A stretch of DNA of 64,000 bases from NCBI GenBank assembly GCA_020847545.1, contig JADLBV010000091.1:1-64000 (forward strand). The letters run 5' to 3'. The stretch is from Phycisphaerales bacterium. GTDB taxonomy: Bacteria; Planctomycetota; Phycisphaerae; Tepidisphaerales; Tepidisphaeraceae. The position numbers and the translations under genes were made by a program. Shown piece by piece: positions 46,533 to 57,309 of this stretch (positions are counted from its first letter, which is position 1; each line of letters opens with the position of its first letter). The notes beneath the pieces are model-generated. The model was not told where the DNA came from. It ran no database searches and saw only the letters and a program-made list of their open reading frames with translations.

Positions 46533-46573
46533 CGGTTGACGTTTGAATACGGATGCCAGATCAGGGAAAGATC

Positions 46574-47560
<987 letters not shown>

Positions 47561-47593
47561 GCCGACAAATAAAGGGAATTTAGACGCTACAGT

Positions 47594-48544
47594 ATGGGCA
47601 ATCAGTCATACATTTTGTGTCCCGGACAGGGAGCGCAGACCGTCGGGATGGGGAAGGATTTCGACGCCTCCATCGAGGTGGCCAAAGAGACCTTCGCGCG
47701 GGCCAATTCGATTTTGGGTTTTGACCTGTCGTCGATCTGTTTTAATGGCCCGGAGGAACGGCTCAATCAGACCGATATCAGCCAGCCGGCAATTTATGTC
47801 ACGAGCATCGCGGCCTATCGCGCGGCACAGCGGGCGGGATTGATCGATCCGGCGTCGGTGTCGGCCTATGCGGGTTTAAGTTTGGGGGAATACACGGCAT
47901 TGCATCTGGCCGGCGTCTTTTCATTTGAAGAAGGCTTAAAACTGGTCGCGGCGCGCGGGCGTTACATGCAGCAGGCGGCGGTGGCATCCCCCAGCGGCAT
48001 GGTGGCGATCATGGGGGCCGACCATGCGGCCGTGGAACAATTGTGTCAGGATGAGGCCAAAGGGCAGGTGCTGGTCACCGCCAATTTTAACGCACCAGGG
48101 CAGGTTGTGGTCAGCGGGGCCATTGAAGCGTGCGAACGGGCGTTAAAGGGGGCCGAGGCCAAAGGATTCAAGGCGGTGGCGTTGAAGGTGGCTGGCGCGT
48201 TTCACAGCCCGCTGATGCAAAGCGCCGCCGATTTAATGTCGGCCGAGCTGGCGAAGGTCGATTTCCGGCAACCAAAGACAATGGTTTATTCCAACGTGAC
48301 GGCCGAGCCTCACGGTGATGTGGATTCGATCCGCAAATTACTGGTTGACCAGATTGTCAAACCGGTGCGGTGGGAACAGATCATGGTGAAGCTGGTGGCT
48401 CAGGATGGGGCGCGGTTTGTGGAATTGGCCCCCGGCAGGACACTGGCGGGACTGGCCAAACGGATCAACCGCCGGCTGCCCATTGAGAGTCTGGCAACGG
48501 TCGAATCGCTGGCCCCCACTGCCGGAGCGCATGGGACCAGGTAA
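47594..48544 (+). CDS. fabD: Malonyl-CoA:ACP transacylase FabD
   Basis: A protein of 316 residues. CPGQGAQTVGMGKDF, active-site Ser96 in GLSLGEYTALHLAG and His in VAGAFHSPLMQSA are the FabD signatures. It loads malonate on acyl carrier protein. The ATG has no clear ribosome binding site, so it may rely on coupling within the operon. Confidence 0.95.
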   Translation: MGNQSYILCPGQGAQTVGMGKDFDASIEVAKETFARANSILGFDLSSICFNGPEERLNQTDISQPAIYVTSIAAYRAAQRAGLIDPASVSAYAGLSLGEYTALHLAGVFSFEEGLKLVAARGRYMQQAAVASPSGMVAIMGADHAAVEQLCQDEAKGQVLVTANFNAPGQVVVSGAIEACERALKGAEAKGFKAVALKVAGAFHSPLMQSAADLMSAELAKVDFRQPKTMVYSNVTAEPHGDVDSIRKLLVDQIVKPVRWEQIMVKLVAQDGARFVELAPGRTLAGLAKRINRRLPIESLATVESLAPTAGAHGTR

Positions 48545-48585
48545 ATCACCTTCTCCCGGAGGGAGAGGGAGTTAGCGAGAGGATC

Positions 48586-49323
48586 ATGGATCAGAAGAAA
48601 GTGGCATTTGTGACCGGCGGATCACGCGGGATCGGGGCGGCGATTGTGCGTCGGCTGGCGAAAGATGGTTTTCATGTGGTGGCGGTGGCGCGCAGCGCCG
48701 ACAAGCTTTCGGAGGTGTGCGCCCAGGTCAAGGACGCGGGCGGATCGGCTGAGGCGTTGGCTTGTGATATCGCTGATTCGCAGGCATTGGCCGGTGCGAT
48801 TGAAAAAATCGCCGAAGCGCACGGCCGGCTGGATGTGCTGGTCAACAACGCCGGCATCACGCGGGATGGACTGATCCTGCGGATGGAGGATGAGGATTTT
48901 GACCAGGTGATCAACACCAACCTCAAAAGCGCCTTCGTGGCGATCCGGACGGCCGCCCGGCCGATGATGCGAACCAAAGGAGGCCGGATCATCAACATCA
49001 GCAGCGTGGCGGGTGTGGCCGGCAACGCCGGGCAGGCCAACTATGCCGCCAGCAAGGCGGGATTGATCGGCCTGTCCAAGAGCGTGGCCAAGGAACTGGC
49101 CGGGAAGAACATCACCTGCAACTGCGTGGCGCCCGGTTTCATCACAACGGACATGACGGATGTGCTCAATGACCAGATCAAGGATACGGTCAAGGGGCAT
49201 ATCCCGATGAAGCGGTTCGGCGTGCCCGACGAGATCGCGGCGGCGGTGTCATTCCTGGCCGGCGCTGATTCGAGTTATGTGACGGGTCAGGTAATTTGTG
49301 TTGATGGTGGAATGGTCATGTAA
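48586..49323 (+). CDS. fabG: 3-oxoacyl-ACP reductase FabG
   Basis: A protein of 245 residues of the short-chain dehydrogenase family. Cofactor loop TGGSRGIGAAIV, NNAGITRDG, catalytic Ser in NISSVAG and YxxxK in NYAASKAGL are present, and the C-terminus has VTGQVICVDGGMVM. It performs the NADPH-dependent first reduction of elongation. A short inverted repeat (TCTCCC/GGGAGA, about 48551-48565) lies before it. Confidence 0.95.
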   Translation: MDQKKVAFVTGGSRGIGAAIVRRLAKDGFHVVAVARSADKLSEVCAQVKDAGGSAEALACDIADSQALAGAIEKIAEAHGRLDVLVNNAGITRDGLILRMEDEDFDQVINTNLKSAFVAIRTAARPMMRTKGGRIINISSVAGVAGNAGQANYAASKAGLIGLSKSVAKELAGKNITCNCVAPGFITTDMTDVLNDQIKDTVKGHIPMKRFGVPDEIAAAVSFLAGADSSYVTGQVICVDGGMVM

Positions 49324-49386
49324 AGCGGGCAGGGTTCATCCCCGCCATCGGCATGATAAGAGTGTAATTCAAGGTGTGACAGGCTG

Positions 49387-49414
49387 TTGCAAATGGGTAT
49401 GTGACGGCTATAGT
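49387..49414 (+). promoter_or_regulatory. Internal promoter of acpP
   Basis: TTGCAA (49387-49392), a 16-base spacer and TATAGT (49409-49414). The 146-base gap between fabG and acpP, long for this operon, suggests separate strong expression of the carrier protein. Confidence 0.45.
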
Positions 49415-49469
49415 TTGCGAACGTTCCGGCGTGTGGCCGGGGCATAACTTTGCATCACAGGTGGAGCCT

Positions 49470-49709
49470 ATGGAAGAGATCGAAACGAAGGTCATCGAGA
49501 TTGTCAGTGAGCAGATGGGCGTTGATAAAAGCGAGATCACTCGCGAGACGCATTTTATCAACGATCTCAACGCCGACTCGCTGGACACGGTCGAACTGGT
49601 GATGGAATTTGAGGATGAGTTCGAGCTGTCCATCCCCGACGAAGAAGCGGAGAAGATCCAGACCGTCGGGCAGGCGATCGACTACATCAAGGAACATTCC
49701 AGCAAATAA
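49470..49709 (+). CDS. acpP: Acyl carrier protein
   Basis: A protein of 79 residues from ATG 49470 after GGTGGAG. The phosphopantetheine Ser37 is in [15 protein letters not shown], and [20 protein letters not shown] is typical of acpP. It carries growing acyl chains. An in-frame upstream GTG/ATG start is unlikely, since acpP homology begins at MEEIETKV. Confidence 0.95.
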
Positions 49710-49803
49710 TCACCGCTGGACCGGTCGGGATCGGTAATGAGTCTCGCCACCCGTCTGCGCGGCGGGTGGCCGATGCCCCAGCGTCCGCGGGTCGGAACAG
49801 GAT

Positions 49804-51045
49804 ATGAGCAAACGCCGTGTCGTCATAACGGGTCTTGGGATCGTCTCATCGCTGGGCGAATTGGCCGACCAGGTGTGGGAGGCGGTTTGTGCCGGCAAAA
49901 GCGGCATTGTCACCATCCGCCGCTGGGACACCGGCAAATACCCCGTCAAGATCGGCGGCGAATGCCTTGATTTTGACGTGACGAAATACGGCGTCGATGG
50001 CCGCGAGGCCAAGCGGATGGACCGGTTCGGCCAGTTTGGCCTGGCGGCGTCCGTCAGCGCGGTCAAGGACTCGGGGTTGAATTTTGAATCGGAAGACCGG
50101 CTGCGCTGCGGCGTGATGATCGGCAGCGGCATCGGGGGGATCGAGACGCTGGAAGAACAGAACAAAATTCTGATCGAACGCGGGCCGGGCCGGGTCAGTC
50201 CGTTCACGGTCCCACGGCTGATGGTCAACGCGGCCAGCGGCAATGTCTCGATCATGTTCGGGATTCAAGGCCCCAACAGCGCGGTGGCGACCGCCTGTGC
50301 CACGGGATCCAACGCCATCGGCGACGCCGGCCGATACATCCAATATGACATGGCGGATGTGATGATCGCCGGCGGATCGGAAGCGGCGTTGTGCGAATTG
50401 GGCATGGCCAGTTTTTGCGCCGCCCGCGCCTTGTCGACCAGCAATGAACATCCGCAAAAAGCCAGCCGCCCGTTTGACAAGGGGCGCGATGGTTTTGTCA
50501 TGAGCGAAGGGGCGGGCGTGGTGGTGCTGGAGGAATACGAACACGCCAAAAGACGCGGTGCGCGGATATACGCCGAGTTGCTGGGGTACGGCATGAGCGG
50601 CGACGCTTCGCACATTACCGCCCCCGAACCCGAAGGGCGCGGGGCGACCCTGGCAATGCGGCGGGCACTGGCTGATGCGGGGGTCAATCCGGAGGTTGTC
50701 GATTACATCAACGCCCACGGAACCAGCACGCCGCTGGGTGACATCGCCGAGACCAAGGCGATGAAAGCCTGTTTTGGGGCACACGCGCATAAGCTGGCCG
50801 TCAGCTCAACCAAGAGTCAGATGGGCCATTCGCTGGGCGCCAGCGGCGGCATGGAGGCGTTGATCACCGCGATGGCGGTCTGGCGCAACCTGGCCCCCCC
50901 CACCATCAATCTGGACGATCCGGACCCCGAATGCGACCTGGATTATGTGCCCCACAAGGCGCGCGACCGCAAAATCAACTATGCCATGAGCAACAGTTTT
51001 GGTTTTGGGGGGCACAACGCGAGCCTGCTGTTTAAGAAGATTTAA
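49804..51045 (+). CDS. fabF: 3-oxoacyl-ACP synthase II (FabF)
   Basis: A protein of 413 residues. Catalytic C165 in ATACATGSNAIGDA, His in NAHGTSTPLGD and His in KSQMGHSLGASGG form the Cys-His-His set. RRVVITGLGIVSSLG is the usual start. It carries out elongation condensation. Last gene of the fatty-acid operon before the cimA promoter. Confidence 0.96.
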   Translation: MSKRRVVITGLGIVSSLGELADQVWEAVCAGKSGIVTIRRWDTGKYPVKIGGECLDFDVTKYGVDGREAKRMDRFGQFGLAASVSAVKDSGLNFESEDRLRCGVMIGSGIGGIETLEEQNKILIERGPGRVSPFTVPRLMVNAASGNVSIMFGIQGPNSAVATACATGSNAIGDAGRYIQYDMADVMIAGGSEAALCELGMASFCAARALSTSNEHPQKASRPFDKGRDGFVMSEGAGVVVLEEYEHAKRRGARIYAELLGYGMSGDASHITAPEPEGRGATLAMRRALADAGVNPEVVDYINAHGTSTPLGDIAETKAMKACFGAHAHKLAVSSTKSQMGHSLGASGGMEALITAMAVWRNLAPPTINLDDPDPECDLDYVPHKARDRKINYAMSNSFGFGGHNASLLFKKI

Positions 51046-51080
51046 CAGACCTCGCGACCCCCCCCGCCGGACCAGCGGAT

Positions 51081-51109
51081 TTGACCTATGGCAACATACG
51101 GGATATCAT
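51081..51109 (+). promoter_or_regulatory. Promoter of cimA
   Basis: TTGACC (51081-51086) and TATCAT (51104-51109) each match consensus at five of six positions and are 17 bases apart. Transcription would start near 51116, producing a leader of about 125 bases. Confidence 0.65.
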
Positions 51110-51115
51110 GCTCTT

Positions 51116-51217
51116 AATGTTCTTTTTTCGCACACAGATCGGCCCGATACAAATTACCCCTCGGCAACGCGGGTAGGGCTTTTGTGTGCATCTGTTGCGA
51201 CTGATCAGGCCCTGCCC
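51116..51217 (+). ncRNA. Structured cimA leader: candidate riboswitch or attenuator, unknown class
   Basis: A 9-pair stem (51130-51138 with 51181-51189; one G-U) closes a region that holds a hairpin 51156-51174. That hairpin has ACCC/GGGT arms and a GCAA tetraloop on a CG/CG stem. A possible small stem ATCG/CGAT lies at 51138-51148. Segment 51171-51181 can instead pair over 11 consecutive positions (two U-G) with 51207-51217, which includes the left arm of the terminator hairpin downstream. The two folds exclude each other, the hallmark of ligand- or translation-controlled attenuation. No known riboswitch class was recognised. Confidence 0.6.
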
Positions 51218-51240
51218 ATGATGGCGGGGCATTTTTGTTT
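51209..51240 (+). terminator. Intrinsic terminator (attenuator) directly before cimA start
   Basis: GCCCTGCC (51209-51216) and GGCGGGGC (51223-51230) pair fully, with one T-G, around a 6-base loop. ATTTTTGTTT follows, and the first ATG of cimA is at 51241. The hairpin covers any possible ribosome binding site. Confidence 0.75.
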
Positions 51241-52896
51241 ATGGACTGGATGGCAACCATGGCAACGACACGCCGAATCGAAATCTACGACACCACCCTC
51301 CGCGACGGCACGCAGGGGGAGGGGTTTAATCTGTCTTTGCAGGACAAGCTGCTGATCGCCCAAAAACTCGATGAACTGGGCGTTGATTATGTCGAGGGAG
51401 GGTTCCCCCTCTCCAATCCCAAGGATGCGGCCTTCTTTCGCGAAATTCGCACCGTCCGCCTTAAACACGCCAAGGTTTCGGCCTTCGGCATGACCCGCCG
51501 TCGCGGCATGAAAGCCGAGGATGATCCGGGTATGAAATCGCTTTTGGATGCTCAAACACCCGTGGTGACGATCGTCGGCAAGACCAGTGATTTTCATGTC
51601 AAAAAGGTGCTCAATGTCTCCCTGGAAGAAAACCTGGAGATGATCAAGGATACGGTTCGGTTGATGACCTCGGCCGGCCGAAAGGTTGTTTATGATGCCG
51701 AACTGTTTTTCGATACCTATCGCGACAACCCGCAATACGCCCTGCGGACGCTGCACGCGGCGCTGGAGGCGGGGGCAACGGTGCTGTGTCTGTGCGACAC
51801 ATTGGGTGGCAGTATGCCTGAATTTGTGGAATCCACCGTCGCGGCCGTACTCAAAGAGACCGGCGCGATGATCGGCGTGCATACCCACAATGATAGCGAC
51901 GTGGCCACCGCCAATGCCCTGGCGGGTGTGCGTGGCGGGGCCAAGCACGTTCAGGGGACCATCAACGGCGTCGGCGAGCGATGCGGCAACATGGACCTGA
52001 TCCCGCTGATCGCCAACCTGAAAGTCAAATATGGTTATGACTGCCTGCGGGAGGATTCGCTGCGCAAATTGACCGAGGTGAGCCGGTACGTCTACGAAAC
52101 CGCCAATATCAACCTCGTTCCCAGCCGCCCATATGTTGGCTCCAGCGCCTTTGCCCACAAGGGCGGGATGCACGTTCACGCGGTGCAGAAGGATGCCAGC
52201 ACCTACGAACACATCAACCCCGAAGCCGTGGGCAATACGCGAAAAATCCTGATCAGCGAAATGTCGGGGGCCAGCAACATCACGGCCAAACTCGGCAACA
52301 AATTCGACATCGCTACGGACAAGGCCGCGTTGCGCAAGGTGTTGGAAACGGTGCAGGACCTTGAGAACGCCGGTTATCAGTTTGAGGCGGCCGAGGGGAG
52401 CTTTGAGCTGCTGCTGCGAAAACAGATCGGCCGACACAGGCCGTTTTTCAAGCTGGACCATTACCGTGTGATTATCCAGCGGTTGCACAACGCCGAGCCG
52501 GTGGCCGAGGCGACGTTGAAACTGCGGATCGGCGATCAGGTGGAACATCGCGTGGCCGAGGGGGATGGCCCGGTCAATTCGCTGGATGGCGCGATCCGCA
52601 AGGCGTTGATGAAACACTACCCGCAGATTGAGCAGGTGCGGCTGACCGATTACAAAGTGCGGGTGATCAACAGCCGCGAGGAGACCGCGGCGGCCGTGCG
52701 GGTGATCATCGAATGCCGGCGCGAACGCGCGGATGGTTCAAAGGAGAATTTTGGAACCATCGGCGTCAGCGCCAACATCATCGACGCCAGTTGGCAGGCG
52801 TTGCTCGATGCGTATGAGTATCATCTGATTCATTGCGAGGAAGAACGCCATCCGGAGTCGGCCGTGCGGGCCGAGGGTGTGGCCGCCGGCGCCTGA
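51241..52896 (+). CDS. cimA: Citramalate synthase (LeuA/CimA family)
   Basis: About 551 residues. The HMGL-like barrel has IEIYDTTLRDGTQGEG, GGFPLSNPKD, metal-site GVHTHNDSDVATANAL and NGVGERCGNMDL. The C-terminal LeuA-dimer regulatory domain starts after about residue 400. The long KVKYGYDCL and SNPKD features place it with (R)-citramalate synthase, which makes citramalate from pyruvate and acetyl-CoA for isoleucine synthesis, rather than 2-isopropylmalate synthase. Three in-frame ATGs (51241, 51250, 51259) are possible starts; none has a ribosome binding site. It is transcribed with uppS. Confidence 0.9.
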   Translation: MDWMATMATTRRIEIYDTTLRDGTQGEGFNLSLQDKLLIAQKLDELGVDYVEGGFPLSNPKDAAFFREIRTVRLKHAKVSAFGMTRRRGMKAEDDPGMKSLLDAQTPVVTIVGKTSDFHVKKVLNVSLEENLEMIKDTVRLMTSAGRKVVYDAELFFDTYRDNPQYALRTLHAALEAGATVLCLCDTLGGSMPEFVESTVAAVLKETGAMIGVHTHNDSDVATANALAGVRGGAKHVQGTINGVGERCGNMDLIPLIANLKVKYGYDCLREDSLRKLTEVSRYVYETANINLVPSRPYVGSSAFAHKGGMHVHAVQKDASTYEHINPEAVGNTRKILISEMSGASNITAKLGNKFDIATDKAALRKVLETVQDLENAGYQFEAAEGSFELLLRKQIGRHRPFFKLDHYRVIIQRLHNAEPVAEATLKLRIGDQVEHRVAEGDGPVNSLDGAIRKALMKHYPQIEQVRLTDYKVRVINSREETAAAVRVIIECRRERADGSKENFGTIGVSANIIDASWQALLDAYEYHLIHCEEERHPESAVRAEGVAAGA

Positions 52897-52923
52897 TGAA
52901 TCAGAGACATCAAGACGAACATC

Positions 52924-53703
52924 ATGCAAACCGAACCGCCGAACCAGTTACTAAATAAGATCGCCCCGGAGCGGTTTCCGCGCCATATTGCCATCATTAT
53001 GGACGGCAACGGCCGATGGGCGGTTCGACAAGGCAAGCCGCGAATACAGGGGCATCAGGCCGGCGCCGACACGGTTCGGCGGATCGTGACCGAGGCGGCC
53101 CGTCTGCGTAAAGAATGCGGCGGTCCGGATTTTCTGACGCTCTATTCATTCAGCATTGAAAACTGGAAACGTCCGGCCCAAGAAGTCGAGTTTCTGATGC
53201 GGATGTACATTGATTATCTGCAACAGGAACGCCCGACGATGATGAAAAACAACATCCGATTCCATCAGATCGGGCGGCTTGATCATCTTCCCGAGCCGGT
53301 GCTGGAAGAGATGCGCATCACGCTGGAACAGACCCGCAACAATGATGGCCTAAACCTTGTATTGGCAATCAATTATGGCAGCCGGGCCGAGATCACCGAT
53401 GCCGTGCGTGCTATTGTTCGTGAAGTGGAGCAAGGCCGATTGAAGCCGGACAATATTGATGAGCAGACCATCAGCGCGCATTTGTACACCGCAGGGATGC
53501 CAGACCCGGATTTGCTGATTCGGACCGCTGGCGAGATGCGGATTAGCAATTATTTGCTATGGCAGATCAGCTACGCCGAGTTGTTCATCAGCCCGGTCTT
53601 GTGGCCCGATTTTGCGGAAAAAGACCTGCACGAAGCGATTGTGGCTTTTTCAATGCGGCATAGGCGATTTGGGGCGTTGGATCAGACCAATACGCTGAAA
53701 TAG
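52924..53703 (+). CDS. uppS: Isoprenyl (undecaprenyl) diphosphate synthase UppS
   Basis: A protein of 259 residues. Catalytic D27 in HIAIIMDGNGRWA, TLYSFSIENWKRP, NYGSRAEITDA and the C-terminal DLLIRTAGEMRISNYLLWQ are present. It makes the C55 lipid carrier of cell-wall and LPS synthesis. The usual cdsA-dxr neighbours are absent; it follows cimA by 27 bases. Confidence 0.95.
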   Translation: MQTEPPNQLLNKIAPERFPRHIAIIMDGNGRWAVRQGKPRIQGHQAGADTVRRIVTEAARLRKECGGPDFLTLYSFSIENWKRPAQEVEFLMRMYIDYLQQERPTMMKNNIRFHQIGRLDHLPEPVLEEMRITLEQTRNNDGLNLVLAINYGSRAEITDAVRAIVREVEQGRLKPDNIDEQTISAHLYTAGMPDPDLLIRTAGEMRISNYLLWQISYAELFISPVLWPDFAEKDLHEAIVAFSMRHRRFGALDQTNTLK

Positions 53704-53820
53704 CTGATCGATTCGCCGGGTGACACCCCCACCAACATCCGTTGACATCAGACCATCCTCCCGATTACTGTCCATTGCACGGGAACAATCGTTAATCCTT
53801 GTCACGGGTGAATTTGCAGC

Positions 53821-54951
53821 ATGAAGACCGTTGTATCACGAGCCAAGGCGTATCTTAAAGTCCGTCATAAAAGCGTTCGTGATGCGATGAAGCACCTGGA
53901 CATTGACGGCCTGTTGCTGACCCATCCGCCGGACCTGGCCTATTTGACGAATTTTACGGGTGATGATTCCATCGGACTGATCACGGAGAAGGGGTTTTTC
54001 CTGATCACCGACTTTCGATACCAGGAACAGGCCGAGATTGAGGCGGGATGGCTGAAGACGACCATTCGCGATGGGAAGATGGCCGACAGCGTGGCGGCGG
54101 TGGTTGCGGATGCGAATCTGAAAAAGATCGGTTTTGAGGCCAATTTCACCACGGTCGGACAAATTGACGCACTTTTGACCGCGTTCAAGCAACAAAAAGA
54201 CAAAAAGGCCCCGGAACTGGTTCCGCTGGAAAACGTCCTGACCAACATCCGTAAGGTGAAGGATGACACGGAAATCAACCTGATTCGCAAGTCGGTCAAT
54301 ATCGCCGAGGAGGCGTTTGAGGCGATTCGCGGTGCGATTGAGGTGGGTCAGAGCGAAAATTATCTCGCGGGATTGCTGGTTTTTGAGCTTCGTTCGCGGG
54401 GCGCATCCAGCAGCAGCTTTCCGGTGATTATCGCATCCGGGGCCAATAGTTCGCTGCCCCATTACCTGCCCGGCGAGACCCTCGTCCAGAAGGATCAGCC
54501 CCTTTTGATTGACTGGGGGGCGTTGTACAAAGGATACTGTTCGGACCTGACCCGGACGCTGATCATCGGGCGGGCGAATCCGAAGATGAAGGAAATTTAC
54601 AATCTGGCGTACGAGGCACAGAAGGCGGCCATTAAATTCCTGCGTCCCGGCGTCACCACATTGCAGGCGGATGCCGTTGCCCGCGACATCATCACCGCCG
54701 GCGGATATGGCGAGCAGTTTGGACATGGGCTGGGTCATGGCATTGGCCGGGAAATTCACGAGTTGCCCACGTTGCGCAGGACCGGCGGCGAGGAGGAGCT
54801 TCGCCCGGGCATGATCGTTACCGTTGAGCCGGGAATTTATCTCCCCGGCATTGGCGGGGTTCGCATTGAGGATGATGTCCTCATTACGCACTCCGGTTGC
54901 GAGGTGCTGTCCAGCCTCGATCGTAATTTTGAAGCCAACCATTTGGGATAG
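53821..54951 (+). CDS. pepP: M24-family Xaa-Pro aminopeptidase
   Basis: A protein of 376 residues. The N-terminal creatinase-like domain (DGLLLTHPPDLAYLTNFTG) is followed by the pita-bread domain with metal ligands in DWGALYKGYCSDLTRT (two Asp), GHGLGHGIGREIHE (His), TVEPGIYLPG and GGVRIEDDVLI (Glu). It removes N-terminal residues before proline. The gap before it holds TTGACA at 53742-53747 but a poor -10. The efp gene often found next to it is missing. Confidence 0.9.
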   Translation: MKTVVSRAKAYLKVRHKSVRDAMKHLDIDGLLLTHPPDLAYLTNFTGDDSIGLITEKGFFLITDFRYQEQAEIEAGWLKTTIRDGKMADSVAAVVADANLKKIGFEANFTTVGQIDALLTAFKQQKDKKAPELVPLENVLTNIRKVKDDTEINLIRKSVNIAEEAFEAIRGAIEVGQSENYLAGLLVFELRSRGASSSSFPVIIASGANSSLPHYLPGETLVQKDQPLLIDWGALYKGYCSDLTRTLIIGRANPKMKEIYNLAYEAQKAAIKFLRPGVTTLQADAVARDIITAGGYGEQFGHGLGHGIGREIHELPTLRRTGGEEELRPGMIVTVEPGIYLPGIGGVRIEDDVLITHSGCEVLSSLDRNFEANHLG

Positions 54952-54990
54952 ACCCAAACGGGTGGCCAACCTTGAACAAGGACATGGACC

Positions 54991-55500
54991 TTGAGCGAGA
55001 AAAAAACAAAGAAATCGTCTGAGCCACTAACCAATTCCCCGATGGATGTACGGCTGTTGCAGGAAATTGTCCGGCTCATGGCCGCCAATGACCTGTCCAC
55101 CGTCGATGTCCGCGAAGGCAAGCAGCGGATCATCCTGAAGCGCGGCCCGCAGGGAGCGATCATGGGAGCGCCCATGTATGCCGCACCCCCCGCCGTCGTC
55201 GCCCCATCCGCCCCACCGGCCGCCTCGGCTGCCCCGGCGGCACCGGCCGACGCGGATGCGGGATTGACTCCCATCAAATCACCCATGGTCGGCACGTTTT
55301 ACGCCGCTTCTTCGCCGGATGCCAAACCAATGGTTTCGGTTGGTACGCGGGTGGATGAGGAGACGGATGTGTGCGTCATCGAGGCGATGAAGGTGTTTAA
55401 CAACATCAAGGCCGAAATTCGCGGCACCATCGCCAAAGTGCTGATCAACAATGGCCAGAGTGTCGAGTTCGGCCAAACCCTCTTTCTGGTCAAGCCATGA
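54991..55500 (+). CDS. accB: Biotin carboxyl carrier protein AccB
   Basis: A protein of 169 residues from TTG 54991, 8 bases after AAGGA. It has an N-terminal helix ([19 protein letters not shown]), an Ala/Pro linker ([17 protein letters not shown]) and a biotinyl domain with K134 in [10 protein letters not shown], a change from the usual EAMKMMN. It is a subunit of acetyl-CoA carboxylase. It overlaps the next gene by 4 bases (ATGA). Confidence 0.93.
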
Positions 55501-55952
55501 GCCGACGACAAACACTCAAATTCAATACCGAAGATGATGTCATCGCGGATGTCCAAAAGCTGCGAAAGGGCTATCAACAGGCCGGGGCGTGGAATTTGCC
55601 ACAAGTTTGCTGGCATCTGAACGTCAGTGTGCAAACCCGCATGAAACCCGGGCCATTTCCACCCAACACCCCCGAACAGGATGCCCGCAAGGCGCAAATT
55701 CAGCAGATTCTGGCGGCCGGGCGACTTCCCGATGGTATTCCCGCGCCGGAGGCGTCGGTTCCTCCGCCCGATGCGGGTGATGCGGCGATTGAGACATTGC
55801 TGGCCAGCCTGCAAACGTTCAAAACATTTACCGGCCGGATTCCGCCGCACAGGATTTTCGGCAATCTCAATGACGCCGATGCCCGAAAATTAAACTTGAT
55901 TCATTGCGCGCACCATTTGTCGTATCTGTCACCGGTATCCGCGGGGAGCTGA
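55497..55952 (+). CDS. DUF1569 (DinB-like) protein inserted between accB and accC
   Basis: A protein of 151 residues with the DUF1569 pattern: [34 protein letters not shown] and the C-terminal [15 protein letters not shown]. The His residues (WH.L and HCAHHL) could bind a metal as in the DinB superfamily. The function of the family is unknown. The 4-base overlap with accB and 10-base gap to accC show it belongs to the same operon, which is an unusual place. Confidence 0.75.
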
Positions 55953-55962
55953 ATTTCAACCC

Positions 55963-57309
55963 ATGTTTTCCAAGATTCTCATTGCCAACCGTGGAGAGAT
56001 CGCCCTTCGCATCATTCGCGCCTGCCGCGAGATGGGGGTGCAGACGGCCGTCGTCTATTCGACCGCCGACAAGGATGCGGCCTATTTGAAGCTTGCCGAC
56101 CAGGCCATCTGTATCGGTGATGCCCCACCGGCCGAGTCGTATCTGAACATTCCGCACATCATCTCGGCGGCCGAGATCGCCGATGTGCAGGCGATTCATC
56201 CGGGATATGGTTTTCTGGCTGAAAATGACCAATTTGCGGAAATCTGCCGGAGCTGCAAAATCGAATTCATCGGCCCGCCGGTCAGCGCCATGGCCGCCGT
56301 GGGGGATAAGGTAGCGTGCAAGAAGCTGGCGAAAAAAGCCAAGGTTCCCACGGTCCCCGGCTCGGATGGAGCCATTGAGGATGAGAAGACCGCGTTGAAA
56401 CTGGCGGCCGAGATCGGCTATCCGGTCATCATCAAGGCCGCGGCCGGCGGGGGCGGACGCGGGATGCGCGTGGCACACAACGATGTGTCGCTGCGTGCGG
56501 GTCTGAAACAGGCTCAGGCGGAGGCCGAGAACGCCTTTAAGGATTCAACTGTTTATATTGAAAAATATGTGGAATACGGCCGGCACGTTGAGGTGCAGAT
56601 ATTGGCCGACAACCACGGCAACGCGGTGCATCTGTGGGAGCGAGACTGCTCCATGCAGCGCCGACACCAGAAACTGGTGGAGGAATCCCCCAGTCCGGTC
56701 CTGAAGCAGGATGTGCGTGAAAAGCTCTGCGAATCGGCAGTCCGCCTGGTGAAGGCGGCCGGCTATACCAACGCCGGTACGGTGGAATTTCTGGTCGATA
56801 AGAAACAGAATTTCTACATTCTCGAAGTCAATGCCCGCATTCAAGTCGAGCATCCGGTGACCGAACAGGTCACGGGGATCGATCTGATCAAGCAGCAGAT
56901 TCGCATCGCCGCCGGCGAACCGCTGCCATTCAAGCAAAAGGACATTCCGCAAAATGGCTGTGCCATCGAATGCCGGATCAACGCCGAAGACCCAGCTCGC
57001 AATTTCGCCCCATCGCCCGGGTTGATCGAGGAATTTCGCGCTCCGGGCGGCCCGGGCGTTCGGCTGGATTCACACGCCTATGCGGGTTATCGCATTCCGC
57101 CCAATTATGATTCGATGATCGGCAAGCTAATCGTCCACCGCCCCACCCGCGCCCTGGCGATCGCGGCCATGCGGAGGGCGCTGAGCGAGTTTCACATCGC
57201 GCCGGTGAAGACCACCATCCCGCTGCACTTACAGATCATGGACAATCAGTTTTTCCAATCCGGGGATGTGGACACCGGATTTGTGGAGCGCGCCCTGCTG
57301 GGCAAGTAA
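55963..57309 (+). CDS. accC: Biotin carboxylase AccC
   Basis: A protein of 448 residues. [33 protein letters not shown], the glycine loop [47 protein letters not shown] and INAEDP are standard. It carboxylates biotin on AccB with ATP. Coupled with accB and the DUF1569 gene. Confidence 0.97.

Follow-up and report, generated by a model that had tools for sequence, protein, structure and literature searches.

A likely isoleucine-codon leader peptide and transcription attenuator upstream of citramalate synthase in planctomycetes

Described attenuators of branched-chain amino acid genes

The ilvGMEDA, ilvBN, and leu operons of Escherichia coli, which serve branched-chain amino acids, are controlled by ribosome-mediated attenuators. 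They share with the locus examined here a leader peptide rich in codons for the end product, mutually exclusive pairings, and an intrinsic terminator upstream of the gene for the first enzyme. We studied positions 51081 to 51240 of a 64,000-nucleotide stretch of planctomycete DNA (the window) and, from comparison with related genomes, consider this region very likely to be a ribosome-mediated transcription attenuator of cimA that responds to charged tRNA-Ile. Unlike its E. coli counterparts, the planctomycete leader would control cimA, and hence the citramalate route to isoleucine; the antiterminator strand includes the stop codon of the leader, the transcript appears nearly leaderless, and the phylum is Planctomycetota.

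Three other described cases come close. In Corynebacterium, a structured leader first taken as an RNA motif (ilvB-II) proved to be an upstream open reading frame (ORF) rich in branched-chain amino acids and acting by attenuation (PMC10272879); the likeness lies in an apparent RNA motif that is an attenuating ORF, whereas the phylum, the gene (ilvB), and the sequence differ. The trpL/rnTrpL attenuator of Sinorhizobium meliloti involves a small leaderless mRNA that starts at the leader AUG and whose translation was shown by ribosome profiling (PMC10117765); it concerns tryptophan and trpE, and the corresponding start of the cimA leader is deduced here from promoter spacing. A comparative study of Actinobacteria predicted candidate leader peptides upstream of ilvB, leuS, trp, and other genes, together with terminators and antiterminators (PMC1262725); it concerns another phylum and describes a pseudoknot LEU element for leuA, and the part consulted does not name cimA. 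Our literature search found no report of leader peptides before cimA or of leader-peptide attenuators in planctomycetes, and as far as that literature shows, the cimA attenuator is an undescribed instance of a known mechanism. It points to how a large planctomycete group probably controls isoleucine synthesis through citramalate, and it carries a warning: a co-varying, terminator-linked leader may mimic a new riboswitch when the actual sensor is an ORF of 19 codons.

Architecture of the cimA leader

The elements of the locus are as follows.

51081..51109, + strand: promoter, -35 TTGACC, 17-base spacer, -10 TATCAT (10/12 consensus match; promoter position also seen in relatives)
51117..51176, + strand: predicted leader-peptide ORF, ATG to TAG, encoding MFFFRTQIGPIQITPRQRG (frame and position the same in relatives)
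51138..51155, + strand: putative control region carrying three Ile codons, ATC (51138-51140), ATA (51147-51149), and ATT (51153-51155)
51130..51145, + strand: segment 1, 5' arm of the protector hairpin, made up of the closing-stem strand GCACACAGA and GGCCC (own versus swapped pairing, 0/5000)
51171..51189, + strand: segment 2, antiterminator strand GGGTAGGGCTT including the stop TAG at 51174-51176, followed by the 3' arm of the closing stem at 51181-51189
51207..51217, + strand: segment 3, AGGCCCTGCCC, with alternative partners 51171-51181 (antiterminator) or segment 4 (terminator)
51209..51240, + strand: predicted intrinsic terminator GCCCTGCC-catgat-GGCGGGGC (hairpin 51209-51230), then ATTTTTGTTT
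51259..52896, + strand: cimA, gene for citramalate synthase (TIGR00977), its start most likely at ATG 51259 (judged from relative L003)

The promoter and the closing stem (51130-51138/51181-51189) had been picked out in an earlier note on this DNA, and both are present as described there. What that note overlooked is a complete ORF beginning seven bases after the -10 box: ATG TTC TTT TTT CGC ACA CAG ATC GGC CCG ATA CAA ATT ACC CCT CGG CAA CGC GGG TAG (51117-51176). It would encode a peptide of 19 residues, and its stop codon falls within the antiterminator strand GGGTAGGGC. Three of the 19 codons specify isoleucine, all separate; the nearest relative has two, and other genera have longer runs, a point that weighs against the attenuator reading. 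One of the three is ATA, which makes up 2.9% of Ile codons nearby. A single-ORF test of Ile content gave weak evidence in the case of the window leader (P about 0.02 with the longest form), and we therefore relied on frame-anchored and promoter-anchored tests that are blind to isoleucine.

The downstream product matches TIGR00977 with 653.9 bits against a cut-off of 450, which confirms the gene as cimA, in keeping with the proposed attenuator of citramalate synthase. The terminator had been described as flush against the cimA ATG. The terminator itself stands, but the abutting ATG at 51241 is not a likely start, because the nearest relative (L003) has ATG GAC TGA in its place, with an in-frame stop; ATG 51259 is favored. 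Around cimA, the interval 46553-57309 holds genes that we named from their translations: the fatty acid genes fabH, fabD, fabG, acpP, and fabF upstream, accB and accC downstream, and also uppS and a peptidase.

Leader ORFs before cimA in related genomes

A DNA search with the leader matched the same genus and, outside it, a few short stretches upstream of cimA; these led to the ORF. Predicted leader ORFs with in-frame start and stop, Ile codons, and a terminator were found upstream of cimA in 36 genomes, which represent five families belonging to one class (probably Phycisphaerae), and the 36 leaders were curated by hand. At this place the relatives carry MKTFTATAGIIITPGQLG, MLSVAYVARPIITPRHLG, MKTATTIARRIIIPRKYG, MSHSSIIAEIIMIPSHGR, MNIQNIIISIIINIGGD, and others; among the 21 family members searched, a recognizable leader was absent in L017, L021, and L153.

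The frame-anchored test used the antiterminator TAG followed by CCCTGC as its sole anchor and covered 29 leaders from families f1, f12, f15, and f18. In the frame of the TAG, 119 of 377 codons (31.6%) specified isoleucine and no stop occurred, compared with 8 and 1 Ile codons (2.1% and 0.3%) and 10 and 6 stops in the other two frames. Isoleucine makes up 6.7% in the genes beside the window leader, against which the anchored leaders are enriched in codons for the end product; the window leader itself has only its 3/19. When ORFs were instead picked solely by their distance to a promoter matching at least 9/12 positions, the cimA leader peptides were recovered in 17 of 21 family genomes, with 23.3% Ile, 4.0% Leu, and 1.7% Val. 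As to codon choice, ATT accounts for 78 of the 119 Ile codons in the anchored leaders, and the neighboring window genes favor ATC (134/207).

A promoter matching at least 8/12 positions and ending 6 to 10 bases before the leader ATG was present for 30 of 36 leaders, versus 20 of 720 offset positions (2.8%), and a Shine-Dalgarno core of at least 4 was absent in 31 of 36. Because the promoter spacing is conserved and the Shine-Dalgarno core is mostly absent, transcription probably starts 0 to 4 bases before the ATG, at about 51116 in the window, and the transcript would be nearly leaderless.

Proposed mechanism

We infer the transcription start, the stalling, the termination, and the response to isoleucine. 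Translation of the leader peptide very probably reports the isoleucine supply and decides whether transcription continues. RNA polymerase would start at about 51116, and a ribosome would initiate nearly at the 5' end and translate the leader peptide. With charged tRNA-Ile scarce, the ribosome would stall at the Ile codons and cover segment 1, leaving GGGTAGGGCTT free to pair with AGGCCCTGCCC; the terminator would then be blocked and cimA transcribed. With isoleucine plentiful, the ribosome would reach the UAG inside GGGTAGGGC and cover that strand, allowing the terminator GCCCTGCC/GGCGGGGC to form. In the absence of translation, the closing stem would hide segment 2 and transcription would end as well.

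Chance and covariation of the pairings

The window leader folds better than 200 of 200 shuffles (z, -2.66). The antiterminator pairing between 51171-51181 and 51207-51217, proposed earlier as an 11-position helix, does pair at all 11 positions (2 of them G-U), and 0/5000 dinucleotide shuffles reached 11/11 with the terminator arm. The 9-pair helix of the closing stem alone is not unusual in the window leader (123/400 shuffles), and the shuffle control was significant for it in just 13 of 36 leaders; such a helix is common in shuffles, and its support comes from conservation.

Pairing partners were swapped among relatives, a procedure in which relatedness remains in the swaps. The antiterminator gave -18.2 kcal/mol with its own partner and -15.4 kcal/mol with swapped ones, and the closing stem gave -17.4 and -14.3 kcal/mol; in both cases 0/5000 swaps were as good. 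When swaps were confined to the window's family, the closing stem again gave 0/5000 and the antiterminator 210/5000, the latter because it hardly varies there. The antiterminator pair at stop-3 is G-C in 17 leaders and C-G in 8, an exchange on both sides, and in family f8 the letters of the antiterminator strand are exchanged (CCCC with CGGGG). An antiterminator and a terminator that exclude each other and are kept by compensation, as seen here, are what is expected of a ribosome-mediated attenuator. The two exclusive folds of the earlier note are thus borne out, both pairings co-varying across relatives; the covariation check that it had suggested was passed by both structures, though in the role of leader-peptide attenuator elements.

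Effect of ribosome position on folding

We folded each leader at equilibrium, from its transcribed 5' part up to the loop of the terminator, with a ribosome mask of 31 bases, an assumed footprint size. When the ribosome was placed so that the best Ile codon occupied the A site, the antiterminator had a mean probability of 0.93; when it was placed at the stop, the mean was 0.01. For the window leader it was 0.08 in the free RNA, 1.00 with a stalled ribosome, and 0.00 at the stop, so that the protector hairpin dominates there; it co-varies, but it does not dominate in most relatives, which favor the antiterminator at equilibrium (mean of 0.72 in the free RNA over the 36 leaders). All three states were clean in just 9 of 36. 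Because the free RNA mostly favors the antiterminator, the closing stem acts only weakly as a protector except in some leaders, and in this model the robust switch is the ribosome at the stop codon covering the antiterminator strand.

Regions before leuA, ilvB, and ilvC

In the same genome as the window (L233, G000), leuA is preceded by the leader MRADRLRVAPLTLALGGLLLLRARS, whose TAG is part of GATCGTAGGG, the pairing partner of CCCTGCGATT in a terminator. Leu-rich leader ORFs precede leuA elsewhere in the family (L245-L266), and many of them end within or next to sequence that complements the terminator arm. Before ilvB, short ORFs that end in TVVVR or PVVVR occur in many family members (L234, L235, L236, L268, L273, L274, L282). 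These leuA and ilvB ORFs were ranked by their Leu or Val content, which makes the listing no test of enrichment; chosen by promoter only, leuA leaders had 30.4% Leu and ilvB leaders 29.3% Val, with only three leaders each. Since ilvB was not found in the window's own genome, relatives alone show the Val leader; an obvious intrinsic terminator was absent from the ilvB leaders examined, and ilvC of the same genomes had no such leader. Within one family, the leader before cimA appears to be an Ile leader, that before leuA a Leu leader, and that before ilvB a Val leader, which would separate the three branched-chain signals by gene.

Alternative explanations

The earlier note read the leader as a candidate new riboswitch, in which a metabolite such as isoleucine, a 2-oxo acid, or a cofactor would act through the same terminator and antiterminator. 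The stable fold of the leader and the covariation of both the closing stem and the antiterminator fit such a reading, which we nevertheless regard as extremely unlikely. Conservation follows the codons of one Ile-enriched frame and the two pairings and does not extend to an unpaired core; what is conserved amounts to a short, Ile-codon-rich ORF ending inside the antiterminator. The hairpin described as GNRA-capped does have a GNRA-like loop, but this is not conserved in relatives, and neither a conserved ligand-binding core nor a known class emerged. The suggested Rfam search of the window leader matched no family, yielding only terminator-like chance matches at gathering and permissive thresholds, and nothing was found in relatives with a different leader. 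The same architecture also recurs with Leu codons before leuA, and Val codons precede ilvB, which an aptamer would not need. The riboswitch reading is unsupported because the ORF at 51117-51176 had been missed, and the cimA leader is very probably a classical attenuator of known mechanism rather than a new riboswitch.

The peptide itself might instead act, a nascent chain arresting in response to a metabolite or to isoleucine rather than through slow decoding of Ile codons. A tail of the form ITPRQRG/IIPRxxG recurs in part of the family, and other parts of the class repeatedly show a second leader type, which has a VRAGI tail; yet the tail varies freely between families whereas the Ile runs persist, and RNA pairing explains part of the tail, so that we hold this to be very unlikely. 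There is a small chance that the conserved C-terminal tails of both types (IIxPRxxG and VRAGI...) arrest in the exit tunnel, with the peptide sensing isoleucine or a pathway metabolite in addition to the Ile codons.

Further leader types

Besides the attenuator described above, a second type of cimA leader occurs in other families of the class, in the cimA upstream regions L172, L175, L176, L181, L184, L199, and others. Its peptide reads MRT...VRAGII, with Ile/Val runs and ...CVP*. The stop TAG is part of GCCTTAGGGC, the pairing partner of GCCCTGAGGC in the terminator, a further stem joins the MRT codons (GTGCGGAC) with the VRAG codons (GTCCGCGC), and a Shine-Dalgarno-like GAGG often stands upstream. 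Ile-rich short ORFs with a terminator, for example MIRNIVSIIRPIIIIIIQDTSG, also precede cimA in L071, L083, L113, L133, and L138, whose source records are titled Pirellulaceae, Gemmata, Desulfobacteraceae, and Deltaproteobacteria.
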